Assembly (NCBI GenBank): GCA_018268135.1
Contig: JAFDXD010000145.1
Span: 1 to 45,524, forward strand
Direction of reading: 5' to 3'
DNA length: 45,524 bases
Source of the DNA: Bacteroidota bacterium
GTDB taxonomy: Bacteria > Bacteroidota > Bacteroidia > Chitinophagales > Chitinophagaceae
Below the pieces are notes generated by a model. It was given only the letters and a program-made list of their open reading frames with translations, searched no databases and was not told where the DNA came from. Positions within the stretch are counted from its first letter, which is position 1. Each line of letters opens with the position of its first letter. A program made the translations under genes and the position numbers. Of this stretch, positions 35,078 through 45,524 are shown in pieces.

Positions 35078-37684
35078 ATGTTAAAAAACTACCTTCTTAT
35101 TTTGTTATTTTTCTGTACTGCTTTTGCAACTAACGCACAGGGTACAGAAAGCTTTACCAATTTACCAACTACGCCTACACCGTCATCTTACATCGCCAGA
35201 ACATGGACGGGAGATAACGGGCTTACATGGACTGCTTCAGATGCAAGGGTAGATGGCCCAACAGATGCATCCATTACCGGCATATCCGGAAAATTTATCG
35301 TTATCAGGCAAAACACCGGAAAAGTTACTTGTAATGGAATCCCTAATGGATGCGGTACTGTTACATTTAATTATGCAAGAGCCTACTCAGGCTCTGCAAC
35401 CATTGGCTTGTTTATAAATGGCACACAGGTTGGTGCTACCATTTCTGTAACAAGTAATAGTGCATTACAAGCATCATTTGTAGTAAATACTACCGGTAGT
35501 TTTGATTTTGAAATTCGCCAGCTTACTTCCGGAACTTCTACCAGGGTAGCCATTGACGATGTTAACTGGAGCTCATTCAATGCAACTCCATGCACTGAGC
35601 CTACTGCACAACCCACTAATCTTATATTATCACCTACCCCTACCACTATCTCTGGTACATTTACCCAAATACCAGACCCAACCACCGTACAAAATTATTT
35701 AGTAGTAAGAAGTACTAGCCCTACTCTTTCCCAACTTCCGCAAGATGGAGTAACCTATCCTATTGGCCAGCCAATTGAAGGGGGAAATGGTACAAATGTG
35801 GGCATATCAAGTGATGGAACTTTTACAGATAATGTGTCGCCATCAACTCAATATTACTATTTCATTTTTGCCATGAATGATCAAAGCTGTGGAGGCGGAC
35901 CAAATTACAATCAGGTAAATCCCCTAACAGGTGATATCACTACCCCCGCTTTACCTGCTTGTACCACTCCGGTATCTGCTCCTACTAATCTTACATTAAC
36001 TCCGGTAAACACTTCTATTAGCGGTACTTTTACTGGAGTAGTTGATGCTAATGAATACCTTGTAGTAATTAGTACAAGCAATTCACTTTCTGCTTCACCT
36101 GTAAATGGTACCACTTACACTTCAGGCCAATCTTTTGGCGGAGGCACCATTGTCAGCTTTGAATCTGCTACAAATTTTACTGCAATAGGTTTAACTCCGG
36201 CTACACAATATTACCTGTATGTATTTGCAGCAAATTCTAATTGCTCTGGACAGCCTTTTTATAACACTACCGCTCTCAGTGGCAATACCAGTACTACTAA
36301 TAATACCACCGGTATCCCTACTGGCTATTATGATGCTGCAAATGGGCTTACCTGCCAACCGCTAAAAACCAAATTAAGAGACATCGTTTCTACAGGATAT
36401 GTACAATTAACTTATACTCCAGGTGTATGGAATGCATATCAATTTACAGACATTAAACGCAATGATGCCAATACAGCCAATGTAATTTGGGATATTTACA
36501 GCGATAACCCTACTGGGCCCGACCCATACAATTTTACTTATGGCCCTTCTACTTCGGGCGGTAATCAATGTGGCACTTATGGTAAAGAAGGCGATTGCTA
36601 TAACAGAGAGCACTCTACCCCAAAATCGTGGTTTGCCGATGCCTATCCTATGTACACAGATATCAATCATTTATACCCTACCGATGGTTATGTAAATAAT
36701 ATTAGGAACAATTACCCTTATGGTGAAGTAACAACTGCTACTTCCACCTCTCTAAATGGAAGCAAGCTTGGTACGGGAACTAACTTTGGATATGTAGGCA
36801 CCGTATTTGAGCCCATTAATGAATACAAAGGCGACCTTGCCCGAACCAGTCTTTATATGGCAACCCGGTACGAGAATGAAATTATTGCAAATAACTGGTC
36901 GGCTAATGGCAGTGCAGATGCGCTTTTTTTAAGCCCGACAGATGAACCAGATCCTACTAAAAGAAAACTTCAGATTTATGATGCATGGTATCTTAAAACT
37001 CTCTTTAAATGGATGGCAAACGACCCTGTAAGCCAAAAAGAAATTGATAGAAACAATGCCATTTATTATCAATCAGGGCAAAACAACAGGAATCCTTATA
37101 TTGATCATCCTGAATATGCAGCTCTTGTTTTTCAATGTACAGGTTTACTACCGGTAACCATTACAAATTTTACTGCTGCAAAAAATAATGAAGAAGTATT
37201 ACTAAAATGGTATGCAACCTACGAAACTGATTTTAAGCAATATGAAGTAGAAAGAAGTATCAATGGCATTAATTTTAATAAAATAGGTCAAATTGCCGGC
37301 AGAAACCTGGCAAATTATTCATACAACGATCAGAACTTACCCAATAGTTCAGTTGTATATTATCGCCTTAAAATGATAGATATAGATGGAAAATATAGTT
37401 ACAGTAAAACTCTTGCTGTAAAGCTAAATAACAATTTATCCAATGCTATAGTATATCCTAACCCGGCCAATGCCAGCTTAAATATTAAATTATTACAAGT
37501 ATTAGCCGCCAATAGTAGCTTACAGGTAACGGATATTGCCGGCCGAATTGTAATGCAAAAAATGGTTTCAAATGGTACTATTAATTTTCCATTAGATGTA
37601 AAATCTTTGCCCTCCGGCAGGTATTTTATCAAAATACAAAACACACATCAATTAATAACACAATCATTTGTAGTAATAAAATAA
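35078..37684 (+). CDS. Secreted endonuclease I family protein with T9SS sorting domain
   Basis: An 868-residue secreted protein: signal peptide (MLKNYLLILLFFCTAFATNAQ), then an N-terminal beta-sandwich-like domain of about 150 residues. Two similar segments with fibronectin-like style follow (CTEPTAQPTNLILSPTPTTI and CTTPVSAPTNLTLTPVNTSI). The endonuclease I domain (about 420-690) carries CYNREHSTPKSWF and DINHLYPTDGYVNNIRNNYPYG, the metal- and phosphate-binding motifs of the family. The C-terminal ~80 residues (IVYPNPANASLNIKLLQ through GRYFIKIQN) form a type A T9SS sorting domain. It probably degrades extracellular DNA or RNA. Its own terminator follows. It shows that the host has the T9SS pathway. 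Confidence 0.88.
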   Translation: MLKNYLLILLFFCTAFATNAQGTESFTNLPTTPTPSSYIARTWTGDNGLTWTASDARVDGPTDASITGISGKFIVIRQNTGKVTCNGIPNGCGTVTFNYARAYSGSATIGLFINGTQVGATISVTSNSALQASFVVNTTGSFDFEIRQLTSGTSTRVAIDDVNWSSFNATPCTEPTAQPTNLILSPTPTTISGTFTQIPDPTTVQNYLVVRSTSPTLSQLPQDGVTYPIGQPIEGGNGTNVGISSDGTFTDNVSPSTQYYYFIFAMNDQSCGGGPNYNQVNPLTGDITTPALPACTTPVSAPTNLTLTPVNTSISGTFTGVVDANEYLVVISTSNSLSASPVNGTTYTSGQSFGGGTIVSFESATNFTAIGLTPATQYYLYVFAANSNCSGQPFYNTTALSGNTSTTNNTTGIPTGYYDAANGLTCQPLKTKLRDIVSTGYVQLTYTPGVWNAYQFTDIKRNDANTANVIWDIYSDNPTGPDPYNFTYGPSTSGGNQCGTYGKEGDCYNREHSTPKSWFADAYPMYTDINHLYPTDGYVNNIRNNYPYGEVTTATSTSLNGSKLGTGTNFGYVGTVFEPINEYKGDLARTSLYMATRYENEIIANNWSANGSADALFLSPTDEPDPTKRKLQIYDAWYLKTLFKWMANDPVSQKEIDRNNAIYYQSGQNNRNPYIDHPEYAALVFQCTGLLPVTITNFTAAKNNEEVLLKWYATYETDFKQYEVERSINGINFNKIGQIAGRNLANYSYNDQNLPNSSVVYYRLKMIDIDGKYSYSKTLAVKLNNNLSNAIVYPNPANASLNIKLLQVLAANSSLQVTDIAGRIVMQKMVSNGTINFPLDVKSLPSGRYFIKIQNTHQLITQSFVVIK

Positions 37685-39873: not shown

Positions 39874-40000
39874 CTTACTAGTTGCTGTCCTCAACATACG
39901 GAAGTTTCTATAACCTGACTTATCGGTTGCTGTCATCACCAACCGAAATTCTTCTGCACCTTTTCTTACCTGTTGCTGCTTTCAGCAACCGGAACTTTTT
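39874..40000. repeat. Three tandem ~45-base hairpin units
   Basis: Units begin at about 39874, 39919 and 39965, each with CTTA-C-GTTGCTG followed by a partly complementary half such as CAGCAACCGGAA. The third is the start of the long repeat copy 1. The copy at 45180 has a perfect CCGGTTGCTG / CAGCAACCGG stem. They look like REP-type palindromes. The first two are degenerate. Confidence 0.65.
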
Positions 40001-40308
40001 AAATTCTAATTCTCCAAAAAAGAATACAGTTAAAATAATAGGATTAGGTAGAATGTACTCAAAAAAAAATTGCAAAGCTTGAGGCTCCGGCCTCATAAAA
40101 AAAGCGTTAAGAAAATTTGAATGGCAGCCGTTAAAAAATAAAATTAATGCTGAAAAAGCTGAATGTTGCAGGGGGCTGGCAAGTCGCACTATAGCCGGGA
40201 TATGATCTATCGTCCGAGCTAATTTTATTTTAGGCGGACATGCAAATTTTTAGCTTTTTTTATGCAGCCTTGATTTTTTTGTTACTTTTTGTATCAAGAC
40301 AAAAAGTA
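39961..40308 (+). repeat. Long direct repeat, copy 1
   Basis: About 348 bases that recur as copy 2 at 45176-45524 in the same orientation with about 22 differences by hand alignment (around 94% identity); the last ~110 bases are identical. It starts with a GTTGCTG/CAGCAAC hairpin and ends in the palindrome TTACTTTTTGT-ATCAAG-ACAAAAAGTAA. I see no convincing ORF in it, so it is a non-coding multicopy element. Confidence 0.9.
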
Positions 40309-40309
40309 A
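40282..40309. repeat. Perfect 11-bp palindrome at the end of repeat copy 1
   Basis: TTACTTTTTGT (40282-40292) and ACAAAAAGTAA (40299-40309) form a perfect stem around ATCAAG. Copy 2 reaches the same palindrome but is cut by the window end one base short. Confidence 0.85.
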
Positions 40310-40661
40310 TTAAAGAAAAACCAACGGGGATAAAGGTTTGATATCAAAAAAACTATTCCTATAAAATTTAATTGTTCCAAAGGCACAGATACGCATTGCA
40401 CAAAAGCCATGCTGCATATCTGCGCCAGTAGAGATATCATAAGAGAATATCAACAGGTAAAAAGCAAGAATATGCTATTTTCTCTGCTATAGAGGGAATG
40501 TAGCAGCATTTGGGTACTCATATACATTTATACCTTATACATGAGATATCTATTTGGACTTAGCCTGGAAGATGATAAAGAAGCTACATAAACTGCTCAA
40601 GTGAAGACTACAGTTAAACAAAGACAGTCTTTTTTAGTGTCTATTAAAATCATATGAGATA
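40309..40661. other. Gene-free gap between repeat copy 1 and the recoded gene
   Basis: No gene is supportable. The first ~70 bases read like Bacteroidota intergenic DNA continuing from the repeat. The remainder (from about 40380) has a different texture and includes short inverted repeats around 40515-40550. A weak hairpin AGACA/TGTCT at 40622-40643 on the minus strand could end transcription of the recoded gene. If the contig is chimeric, a junction lies somewhere here. Confidence 0.5.
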
Positions 40662-43600
40662 TTAGTTTACGATGATCTTTTCTACCTTCTTATATCCACT
40701 TCTATCATCTTCCATTACAATCATATATAGCCCAGATGCCATAAATGGTATTTGAAGTTGTACTGTTCTATTTACAGCTTGAGATTCCATTGAAACTATA
40801 TGAGATCCCTTAGCATCATATATTCTAATGCTCAATTTAGTAGTATATGTTGGCAAGCTATCAATTGTAAGCTTTTGTCCATTTTGTACTGGATTTGGAT
40901 ATAGTCTTACATTACCTCCTGAAATATTTGGTACTGTTGTAATAACAGCATTAATAGTATTTGATGCAACTGGTCCACATCCGTTATTTGTAATAGTTGT
41001 TCTATATTCACCATTTACAGTAACTGTATATGAAGTACCTGGCGTACCCACATTTTCCCAATTACCTGTAGTAGTATTTTTCTTTTGCCATTGATATGTA
41101 GCTCCAGTAATTGGACTTTGTACTGTAAGAACATTACCTGCTTGTGCAATATTTGGTGAAGATGGTAAAGGCGATGTAGTAAGTACTACAACAGATGCGG
41201 CTGATTGACATCCAGCAGGATTTTTTACTTTGATTTGATATGTACCAGCAGGTAAGTTTGCTAAAACAGGGTTTGAAACATATGTAACTCAATTATCGAA
41301 ACTATACGTATATCCAGTTGTGGGAGCAATTGAGATTTGTCCATTTGATACACTACATGTTGGTTGAGTAAGTGTTGTAACTGGTGCAGCTGGTGCAGTT
41401 GGTACTGCGTCAATAACAGCAGTAATAGTCGCTGATTCACATCCAGCAGCATTTTTTGTCTTTAGTTGATATATTCCAGGTGCTAATCCTGCTAAAACAG
41501 GATTTGAAACATATGTAACTCAGTTATCGAAACTATATGTATATCCAGTTGTGGGAGTAATTGAGATTTGTCCTGTTGGCACAGCACATGTTGGTTGGGT
41601 CATTGTGGCACTTGGTGCAGTTGGTAATGCATTTACATTAACAGTAGCTGTATCACCATTTGCATTAGTATAACAAGCGCCCACTGGCAATTCGATAACT
41701 GTCCATATTTTCACTTGTGGGATTTGACCTGTAGTATTATAAGAGATAGGGGTTCCAGTATATGTAAATGTTTGGAACAATATTGGAGTTCCAGCACCTA
41801 CCTGTTTATATACCTTGAATACAGTATTGTTTGGTGTTCCAGCTTTTGGAGTAATGATACCATTGATTGTAGCATTATCACATACTTGAGATTGTGCAGT
41901 AATAGCTGCATCTGCAGTAAATTGTGCATTAACAGTGATAATTGCTGTATCTGAATATACAGTAAATGGAGCACATGTATTAGTTCCTTGTGTAGATTTA
42001 ACATATGACTTCCATACTCCAGGTCCTAGAATTGGTGTTGTAATAGAACCAGGAACTACGATTCCATTTACATTATCAACACCAGATGGATTAATGATAT
42101 GTTGTTCATGTGTATATCCTATTCCATTATTATTTGAGAATGCAAATGTAAGATTTGCAGCTGTATTTTCACATTGTGCTACTGCATTTGGCCCTACATC
42201 ACCTATTGGTGAAGCTGATTGAGATACGGTCAGATTCACTGGATTTGATGTCACTGGAGCTGCATTTGTATAACATCCTCCAGCAGTTGGAGTCACTTCA
42301 TATTTAACAGTATATGTGCCAGCAGTAGTGAATACCGGTGGAGTGAACGTACTTGCTGTTCAAGCTTGAAGCACATTATTTATATACCATTTGTATGTTG
42401 GATTAGCTCCTACGTTTGTAGCATTTGCCGTAAATGTAGCTGATTGTCCTGTACAAATATTAGCGTTATTAACCGTCGCAAGTCATGCTGTTGGAGCAAT
42501 AGCCGCATTTACATTATATAATGTATCCTTTTGAGAACTTCCAGCAGTATTTGTATATTTAGCCCTGATTGTATGAGCTCATGCTGCTCATACTGGATAT
42601 TGGAATGTACTATCTGATGGGTTATATGTCAAAGGATTACCATCTTGAGTCACTGCAATAGTTGCAGGTGCTACCGGTGGGTTTTGTAATTTACCTGTTT
42701 GAGTACCATTACTAGCACATTCAATTGGATCAACATTACGGATGTCTGGGATTGGAGGTAGTGTTGGCGTTGATACATTAGAAAGAGTGAATGTTTTGTA
42801 GATAGAAGTGATACATCCATCTGGAGTATTAAATTCATATCTGATTGTATTAGTTCAATTTACAAATCATGAAGTGGTAACGAAATTCAACAAGAATTCT
42901 GCTTGGTTCTGCCCATTTATTGTTGTTGGAGAAATACCAGTCGCTGAACCATTGATATATATCTTCTCATTTGTTGTTAACAATCCGTTATAATATTTCG
43001 GTATGAAATTATATGATGGCGTTACAGAAGCATCAAATGAATTTGGAACTTGTTTAACTGCTTGAACTTTGAGTGCACGATCCAATTCTACCCATCCTTT
43101 ACCATAAGTATTATCTGGTCATGTAGCTCATAAATCTCTTCCTCAGTCATCAAGAACAGCTCTAACTTGAGCATTATTTCTAGAAGTATCTTGAGAAACA
43201 ATAACTGCAACCTCTCCACTTCAAATCGGAGTTGCAGCTGAGGTACCATTTACAGCAGCAAATGTACCATTAGCTTGCATTGCCCATACATTTTGTCCAT
43301 CACTAACATATCCGTGATCTATCATCTCTGGTCATGTATTTGATCAAGATCGTATAGGTTTAGCGTATGATGTTGCAGTAGCTCATCGTGCTGTACATTC
43401 TGGCCATCTAGCTGGCCAATCTAATGATGTAGCTCCAGCATTTCATGTCGCTGCTTGATTGAAGTTCTGCTTACCGCCATTCATATTATAGAGTTGTTGT
43501 ATTCTAGAAAGAATCAATGGATCATTTCCTGCACTAAGAGAGAAATTATTGATCTGACGTTGATTTGGGTATTGTAGACAATGTTGAATCAATGAATCAA

Positions 43601-44495
43601 GTGCTACGTATAGATTAGTTACTGGGAATGAAACTCAGTCAGCAGATACTTGGTACAATCTGATTGGCCCATCATACATCCCAACTCATCAATATCAGTT
43701 ATTAGCTGTAGCTGACGACAAAGAAGCCACAGTAGAACCATGATTTGTAGCAGTTGTATTAATTGAATTATTTGTATGATTCCATCTTCGGATTACTCTA
43801 TTTTGGAATTCTGCATTATTCACATCAAATCCTCCATCAAAGATATTAACTACTATATTCGGTGTAGTTGTAGTAGATTGAACATGCATTACTTTCTTAC
43901 TATATACTGAATCTAGATCTGTTGTAATTGGGTTTGAGAATCAGTTAGCAACCCATCCAGCATCAGATATGTGAAGTTGTTGATTCATTGCTGGATATGT
44001 TTGTGGATCATTGAACGTAGGACAAGCTGAAGTATAAGCTGTGTATTTATATACAATTTGAGCATTTGATAGTTGGCTTGCCAGTTGTTCTTTCTTATAT
44101 TCTAAGTTTCACGAAACATTTATCTCATAGACATCATTCGCTATCTTCTTTGGGGAAAATCATAATTGTTCCAATTTTTTATATATATCTTTTTCTCATC
44201 AAATCACTAATTTCCCTGGTTCAGCAAAAAAAATATTATTTCTGGCTGCAATAGCCAAGGTTTCTCTATCGGTAGGCAATTCTTCAAATATATATGAAAC
44301 TTCCGTTTTTTCATCTACTATGGCTTTTTGTTTGAGTGAACTAAGGATGTTAGCTTGACGCTGTTGAGCCTTTAATACAGTAGACAGTGAATCTTTGTAG
44401 TGTTGGTTCTTTTGTTGAGCTTTGAGATTTGATCAACCAATCAAAAGTCATCAAGTAAGGACAAGTGTTTTAAGTGTATTTTTTATAATTGACAT
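40662..44495 (-). CDS. Subtilisin-like (S8) protease with SprB-like repeats and T9SS-type tail, UGA read as Gly
   Basis: With TGA as Gly this is a complete 1,277-residue protein from ATG (44495) to TAA; 28 in-frame TGA, no in-frame TAA or TAG and no frameshift. The signal peptide reads IKNTLKTLVLTGGLLIGG then SNLKAQ. The subtilase triad is Asp220 (NIFDGGFDV), His252 (NHGSTVASL) and Ser419 (NGTSAATP), with oxyanion Asn324 (SLSAGND). Immunoglobulin-like segments follow, then two close SprB-like repeats (about 965-1115: GYTYSFDN-G-VTYVSNPVL twice), and a sorting domain (about 1196-1277: VRLYPNPVQNGQKLTI, SGLYMIVMEDD). Gly is supported at RDLGATGPDNTYGKG, where subtilases have DLG-PGPDN; Trp is always TGG. 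UGA=Gly is code 25 (Gracilibacteria, Absconditabacteria). Under the standard code it would be dead. Origin and junctions are uncertain. Confidence 0.88.
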
Positions 44496-44528
44496 AATAG
44501 AATGTATCAAAAAGATAAATTTGTCGAT

Positions 44529-44556
44529 ATTATATCATAAATCATATATTTTACAA
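44529..44556 (-). promoter_or_regulatory. Sigma-70-like promoter of the recoded protease gene
   Basis: On the minus strand TTGTAA (44551-44556), 16 bases, then TATAAT (44529-44534), about 34 bases before the ATG. This is the general bacterial -35/-10 type, unlike the TAnnTTTG boxes of the neighbouring genes, and agrees with a foreign origin. No Shine-Dalgarno sequence is evident before the ATG. Confidence 0.6.
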
Positions 44557-45175
44557 GTACATTTTACACATTTGCTCTACCAATACGTTTCCGTTTTTGC
44601 ATAGCTACATTAAGCTCATTATAGTATAATGCTCTTATTTATATTATACACTCTCTCAATGAAAAAATTGCATCATATACAGCGCAGGGTGCTGGTATGT
44701 AAAAGTATCGTTGCTGATTTAAGATTAATATTCTTCTATAATTATTATCTTTCTTGTTTTAATGTCCATTTAAAATTGTTTATCTGCCATTAGCAAAAAA
44801 GAGCAACCCCTTTGCCGTACCGGTTTTACTGGGGTGCTAACAGAGATGTCGCCTGCAAATGGTTTTACGCAATATCCCTATTACGCTCAGCCATATACAT
44901 ACTGCACACCTGCACCTGCCGGAGGGCGTTACTGTTTTGTAGTTTGGGTCGCTTTCTAAACTCAGCCTGCTGCATGAAGGCGTTAGTACCCTATGGCGGC
45001 ATAGTTTTGCATCTGTAAATAACCTTGTAAATGAACTGTTTTAAATATCTGCAATTTACTGTTATGCTTAATTGCAATTTTTATCCCTGCACGAAACCTT
45101 CTTTTTAAAGCATGAAACGGCGATTGATTCCCTAACCGGCTTCTAATTATCGCAGATATGCAGCAAAGGATATTT
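44557..45175. other. Gap between the recoded gene and repeat copy 2
   Basis: No gene can be supported. Up to about 44700 the DNA is very AT-rich, with further TATAAT-like boxes on both strands and a 43-codon plus-strand frame from ATG 44659. From about 44800 the base composition rises and matches Bacteroidota DNA. A plus-strand frame at roughly 44780-44960 (reading TEMSPANGFTQYPYYAQPYT before a stop) could be a fragment of a decayed or multicopy sequence. The composition change suggests a junction between about 44500 and 44800. Confidence 0.4.
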
Positions 45176-45524
45176 TTTTCTTACCGGTTGCTGTCCGCAG
45201 CAACCGGAACTTTTTAAATTCTAATTCTCCAAAAAAGAATACAGTTAAAATAATAGGATTAGATAGAATGAGCCCAAAAAAAAAATTACAAGGCTTGAGC
45301 CTCCGGCCTCATAAAAAAAACGTTAAGAAAGTTTGAATGGCAGCCGTTAAAAAATAAAATTAATGCTGAAAAAGCTGAATATTGCAGTGGGCTGGTAAGT
45401 CGCACTTTAGCTGGGATATGATCTATCGTCTGAACTAATTTTATTTTAGGCGGACATGCAAATTTTTAGCTTTTTTTATGCAGCCTTGATTTTTTTGTTA
45501 CTTTTTGTATCAAGACAAAAAGTA
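45176..45524 (+). repeat. Long direct repeat, copy 2 (cut by window end)
   Basis: Same element and orientation as 39961-40308, about 94% identical, with the better-kept CCGGTTGCTG/CAGCAACCGG hairpin at its start. The window ends inside the terminal palindrome, one base before its last position, which is what an assembly break at a multicopy palindrome would produce. Confidence 0.9.

Follow-up and report, generated by a model that had tools for sequence, protein, structure and literature searches.

A subtilase gene rich in in-frame UGA, probably read as glycine, in a contig with Bacteroidota gene content

UGA is known to encode glycine in the Gracilibacteria (BD1-5) and the Absconditabacteria (SR1), as described in the accessible portions of four reports (PMC4032931, PMC6851277, PMC8080830, PMC10746230), and for BD1-5, represented by a bin of 33.2% G+C, this reading is backed by proteomics in the accessible text of PMC4032931. 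With regard to possible partners, the accessible part of PMC8406219 gives moderate support for an association of Absconditabacteria with Bacteroidetes in mats and describes evidence for lateral transfer as lacking for the experimentally profiled pairs of CPR bacteria and hosts. According to the accessible sections of PMC10746230, five of nine Gracilibacteria phages that are also matched by spacers of other bacteria are matched by Bacteroidetes spacers, and TGA is dense in two of the five Absconditabacteria phages that other bacteria target as well. The genetic code and the protein families dealt with below are, in other words, already known, and the setting is the new part: in a literature seen partly in excerpt and containing few subscription papers, we found no description of a code-25 gene in a standard-code chromosome. 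Searches with most subscription papers outside their scope likewise returned nothing that paired Gracilibacteria with type IX secretion and nothing on the genetic code as a transfer barrier with in-frame UGA. Here, we analyze a stretch of 45,524 nucleotides (the window) from a bin assigned to the Bacteroidota, with a long TGA-rich gene close to its right end (Table 1).

Reading frame and UGA codons

The first-pass annotation of the window had proposed a single minus-strand frame with 28 TGA codons, free of TAA, TAG, and frameshifts up to a terminal TAA, and translation with table 25 confirmed each of these elements. From its ATG to the terminator at positions 40662-40664, the frame encodes 1277 residues, and its codons include 28 TGA, 11 TGG (about ten had been claimed), 75 GGN, no in-frame TAG, and one TAA, the terminator itself; the peptides quoted in that annotation, namely, RDLGATGPDNTYGKG, FQYPVGAAGAHTIRAKY, and two copies of YSFDNGVTYVSNP, are all present. 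In 1277 random codons of the gene's base composition, approximately 68 TAA or TAG codons would be expected (probability of none, 6e-31), and the remaining five frames of the same interval contain 11 to 102 of them each. As had been anticipated, standard annotation would miss the gene, and would hide other inserts like it, since under the standard code the 1277 codons break up into fragments of which two, of 258 and 129 aa, are at least 100 amino acids long.

The TGA codons are distributed unevenly, with 26 of the 28 located within codons 1 to 712, where they account for 26 of 57 glycine codons, versus 2 of 46 in the remainder of the gene (Fisher p 1.3e-6). This drop near codon 712, combined with otherwise similar codon usage, suggests that the two halves differ in age within a code-25 lineage. 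A promoter-like element precedes the start codon (Table 1); the promoter scan as a whole produced matches at chance level (26 versus 25.8 expected), and the stretch following the gene folded no better than shuffled versions of it (153 of 200 shuffles were at least as good).

Table 1. Features of the TGA-rich gene and of the DNA around it
Feature	Position	Strand	Remarks
Host dispersed repeat	39961..40433		ends at left edge of foreign block
Block of foreign k-mer composition	40434..44700		~4.3 kb; right edge approximate
TGA-rich gene	40662..44495	minus	1277 codons; predicted secreted subtilase with surface repeats and type IX secretion tail
Por_Secre_tail, type IX sorting signal	40671..40904	minus	residues 1198-1275; PF18962, 41.7 bits (cut-off 27)
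Surface-repeat copy	41200..41394	minus	TGA at Gly1069
Surface-repeat copy	41431..41625	minus	TGA at Gly992
Peptidase_S8 domain	43095..43859	minus	residues 213-467; PF00082, 53.7 bits (cut-off 21.8)
Probable signal peptide	44418..44495	minus	residues 1-26; TGA at 15, 16, 21; by eye
Promoter-like TTGTAA-16-TATAAT	44529..44556	minus	34 bases before the ATG of the TGA-rich gene
Unique DNA of host-like composition	44701..45150		right of foreign block
Second host repeat copy	45151..45524		cut by contig end

The residue encoded by TGA was evaluated at 14 of the 28 positions, 12 in the S8 domain and two in the surface repeats, and TGA was masked as X before alignment, so that glycine was not favored. 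For the S8 domain, 36 of 37 homologue loci were used (the one left out has its matches elsewhere), 18 of which gave a homologue at E 1e-4, and columns filled in fewer than 60% of the sequences were excluded, which removed no TGA column. Among these 18 homologues, glycine makes up 45% of the residues at the 12 TGA columns, 64% at 15 GGN columns, and 5% at the 231 others, while the tryptophan share at the TGA columns is 1%; of 10000 random column sets, one reached the 45% glycine of the TGA columns. Taken singly, six TGA columns (269, 351, 371, 388, 456, and 459) hold glycine in 12 to 17 of 17 or 18 sequences, column 267 holds it in 4 of 17 and column 451 in 1 of 18, and columns 270, 287, 384, and 425 have no glycine among the residues listed. 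Half of the 12 tested S8 columns are therefore not mainly glycine in the homologues, column 384 being mostly aromatic, and these six columns count against a perfect fit of TGA to glycine. The alignment that had been proposed as a check on the TGA columns of the S8 domain thus speaks for glycine when the columns are pooled and fails to do so at six of them. In the repeats, glycine occupies the two TGA columns in 22 of 27 and 21 of 28 covering loci (30 loci given). The Pfam S8 score depends on the residue substituted for TGA, in the order glycine (53.7 bits), serine (47.3), alanine (47.1), cysteine (45.2), arginine (43.9), and tryptophan (36.1); the score of the sorting tail, where no TGA occurs, varies little under the same six substitutions (40.3 to 44.4 bits).

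These alignments and scores support the claim that TGA in this gene reads as glycine, with glycine far commoner than tryptophan or cysteine at the TGA columns, contrary to what had been named beforehand as a refutation, and they also uphold the accompanying claim that tryptophan fits worse. For the alternative, in which UGA would stand for tryptophan or some other residue or in which the TGA codons would be errors in, or decay of, a normal gene, one can point to the six ill-fitting S8 columns and in particular to the aromatic column 384. We nevertheless regard it as most improbable, given that tryptophan reaches 1% where glycine reaches 45% and that glycine scores best of the six residues, and given, as far as errors or decay are concerned, 1277 codons without TAA, TAG, or a frameshift.

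The bin and the DNA around the gene

In agreement with the first-pass annotation, the gene content of the contig looks like that of a Bacteroidota, with an endonuclease carrying a type IX tail and a TonB-dependent receptor with a CarbopepD_reg domain among its genes, and we assign the phylum on that basis. UGA is a stop codon in this bin. The 29 other genes listed for the window are full length under the standard code, with three of them ending in TGA, and neighboring frames do end in TGA at 498 and 2616, as had been stated. The gene for release factor 2 (prfB) is present in the bin (470 bits). Of the 60 tRNA matches in the bin, ARAGORN typed those outside one contig (C67) and assigned a UCA anticodon to none of them, the anticodons seen being UCC and GCC for glycine and CCA for tryptophan; on C67, ARAGORN types 23 tRNAs, including the sole UCA tRNA found in the bin, and leaves two listed matches untyped. 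Where a code-25 genome should possess a tRNA-Gly(UCA) and lack release factor 2, this bin has prfB and a UCA tRNA that is mitochondrial. C67 (positions 1-38415; L054 and L055) is a mitochondrial contig placed in the Bacteroidota bin, and four of its ORFs, read with TGA as tryptophan, match Pfam families: NADH dehydrogenase 5, a second proton-antiporter subunit, a COX1 exon with LAGLIDADG, and cytochrome b. Its UCA tRNA was considered as a glycine suppressor and rejected, since the contig is mitochondrial by Pfam and has TGA where tryptophan is expected.

The same observations bear on whether the Bacteroidota might itself read the UGA codons of the gene as glycine, through a suppressor tRNA or strong read-through, and make the protein. 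The S8 motif residues are kept, the tail would suit a type IX secretor, and genes in the window include cargo of this kind, all of which would be in line with such a reading; the mitochondrial location of the only UCA anticodon, the presence of prfB, the 29 standard-code genes of the window with their three TGA stops, and a codon usage that is not the host's (see below) make it very improbable.

Frames of at least 250 codons with at least four TGA codons number 28 among 71 bin sources, window included. Two are in the window (the gene and a plus-strand frame across it), 18 are on C67, and eight are elsewhere; of these eight, two (L174 and L163) are ordinary genes with attached out-of-gene sequence, three (L061, L143, and L135) lie over long standard-code frames, and three (L123, L146, and L129) have a noncoding look by eye. 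Across 63 further stretches of the bin, with 603,253 readable bases, no second code-25 gene was found; another five contigs in the sample (C30, C47, C54, C56, and C58) consist entirely of N and were uninformative in this respect. A low-G+C contig end (C59:1-1500; L168) has no frames of 80 codons and k-mers closer to those of the insert than to those of the host, and it holds no code-25 gene.

Comparisons of codon usage and tetranucleotides, which had been suggested as further checks, both set the gene apart from the rest of the contig. The synonymous codon distances between the two gene halves and the other genes of the window are 0.25 and 0.29, compared with 0.09 to 0.13 from the rest for the six window genes of more than 450 codons; the halves are only 0.12 apart from each other, so that one codon regime extends over the whole gene. 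The tetranucleotide correlation with the rest of the contig is 0.57 to 0.80 up to position 37000 and 0.27 to 0.33 in windows from 39001 on. In k-mer composition, 87 host windows score -23.8 (sd 8.4) and 25 insert windows 16.7 (sd 7.2; minimum, -4.1), with a score of -31.6 for the unique DNA on the right flank; positions 44151-44375, inside the gene, score host-like, and the k-mer measure is thus imperfect.

Two copies of a host repeat of ~470 bases flank the foreign block in direct orientation, the right copy being 95% identical to the left. A 341-base piece of this repeat has 69 BLAST matches in the bin, and several copies share the same right end. At its left junction, the block starts where an exact 55-base match to the host stops; at 14 positions sampled from 44600 to 45120, the longest exact matches are 10 to 14 bases, with about a fifth of the bin compared. 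No direct word of at least 8 bases was found to be shared between the edges of the block, no integrase was seen beside it on reading the ORF lists, and no match to its DNA was found among plasmids and phages. Past the gene, ~1 kb of the contig remains. As expected of a horizontally acquired gene, the locus is foreign in composition and is bordered by host-like DNA to the left and right.

The encoded protein and its relatives

Read with TGA as glycine, the start of the protein does resemble a signal peptide by eye, as had been suggested. In the S8 domain, D220, H252, N352, and S419 stand in the expected motifs, and we take them to be the Asp, His, and Ser residues (D220, H252, and S419) and the oxyanion Asn (N352) of S8 peptidases. 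The two surface-repeat copies are 83% identical at the DNA level and are spaced 77 residues apart. SprB-like is a putative label for them; Pfam matched no SprB-type repeat family at E values of up to 0.001 or up to 1, and in the PDB the repeat stretch matches the grappling hook protein GhpA (7.2e-6). The sole NCBIfam match, to a cyanobactin protease model (26 bits versus a cut-off of 421), was not adopted. Elsewhere in the window, at 35078-37684, an Endonuclease I of 868 aa with a type IX secretion tail represents an ordinary Bacteroidota secreted nuclease.

Among 247 genomes of the bin's phylum, eight, including the bin's own, match the S8 part at 1e-10, and the nearest shows ~30% identity, while the repeat stretch is matched at the same threshold by 35 (own genome included), with a best identity of 48% among the top matches. 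The sequence of the repeat stretch is thus similar to that of proteins from the bin's phylum. An origin of the C-terminal half in the host's own genus is unsupported, since the best repeat matches in other families of the class are equal (48%, versus 48% in the same genus), and recent host DNA was rejected as the source of this half, whose codon usage is that of the N-terminal half and not that of the host.

A donor was sought in several collections. Pattern searches gave four matches in viral contigs and, with a second query, 22 in genome contigs, with no relative in either, and a 16S probe pattern retrieved three Magasanikbacteria records and one Dependentiae record, none of which matches the first of these queries. 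Magasanikbacteria are members of the Patescibacteria group, and 29 of 379 genomes of that group do match, at 25 to 37% identity and none with TGA; 28 of these matches fall within residues 104-516 and one at 676-756. In the same 379 genomes, a tRNA-Gly(UCA) pattern had one match, which by eye is no tRNA, and a GTPase motif with TGA at its glycine occurred in four, all of them chance by translation. Since these two pattern probes, of uncertain sensitivity, found no code-25 genome among the 379, that sample is no test of the donor. A stricter tRNA pattern had no match in viral contigs and is itself insensitive, as its UCC form missed the tRNA-Gly(UCC) among 79 loci. For the S8 part, 15 phage records and 26 plasmid records were returned, all below 60% identity.

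Origin of the gene and comparison with known systems

In our view, the most probable explanation, to which we give a probability of roughly 55%, is that a gene of a code-25 lineage was recently captured and integrated in a Bacteroidota chromosome, where it would be intact and unreadable. With TGA so dense at glycine positions, the gene must have evolved in an organism that uses UGA for glycine, probably a member of the Gracilibacteria or Absconditabacteria or an unsampled relative. Since the repeats and the sorting tail look derived from Bacteroidota, an ancestor of this organism probably obtained from a Bacteroidota either the gene or its C-terminal part. A ~4.3-kb piece with the gene as its one long frame would then have entered a standard-code Bacteroidota chromosome beside the dispersed repeat, and, UGA being a stop in this bin, the gene would be an intact passenger there, with ribosomes halting at codon 15. 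No TAA or TAG has been gained, so that either the arrival was recent or the join is an artifact; fewer than ~97 neutral substitutions (2.5%) have accumulated since the gene stopped being read, at 95%. We tentatively extend the capture to a reading, possible though less likely than not, in which the gene crossed the code border perhaps twice, with a Bacteroidota protease, or its C-terminal part, passing into a UGA=Gly organism, being partly rewritten with TGA, and returning intact to a Bacteroidota that cannot read it.

That the contig is a chimera in some form has a considerable probability, if one below even odds. Most of this falls to an assembly artifact, which we consider a real possibility without favoring it, in which a code-25 fragment from the same sample was joined to a Bacteroidota contig and the gene functions in its real owner. 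An assembler could have made the wrong join at the left junction, given that the exact 55-base host match ends there, in a repeat matched 69 times in the bin; the end of the contig 1 kb past the gene, the mitochondrial contig already included in the bin, and the lack of decay in the gene point the same way. Against this, the right side has host-like unique DNA followed by a second host repeat, and, with the right junction unique wherever it was sampled, an assembler would have had to join falsely twice within 4.3 kb. A single false join, at the 55-base match, would suffice if all of 40434-45524 came from a code-25 genome that had acquired Bacteroidota DNA and the repeat, which would also explain the intactness of the gene; we deem this improbable, since it requires a 450-base host-like stretch and a 95%-identical host repeat in another phylum.

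One would expect a difference in genetic code to impede gene exchange. If the capture proposed here is correct, finding a TGA=Gly gene intact in a standard-code chromosome would mean that DNA crosses even where the message is unreadable, and such a gene would connect a Bacteroidota partner with a code-25 lineage and provide a natural test of read-through and decay. A double crossing, if true, would moreover leave a trace by which an exchange of DNA between a host and its code-25 episymbiont or predator could be dated.

Among the systems to which this locus can be compared, the S8 proteins of Bacteroidota with a type IX tail share the combination of an S8 domain and a Por_Secre_tail, and the repeats, too, are common to other genomes of the phylum; the gene described here differs from them in its 28 in-frame TGA codons and in an S8 part whose nearest counterpart in 247 genomes shows ~30% identity. 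A crossing of DNA between codes is also seen in the phages of code-25 bacteria, some of which, according to the accessible sections of PMC10746230, are common to standard-code bacteria; the dual-code-compatible phages described there avoid in-frame TGA, whereas the present case concerns one protease gene in a chromosomal contig. Finally, the gene resembles the code-25 genes of Gracilibacteria (BD1-5) and Absconditabacteria (SR1) in its apparent use of in-frame TGA as a glycine codon but is found in a Bacteroidota contig, flanked left and right by host-like DNA, and has a sorting tail of the Bacteroidota type.
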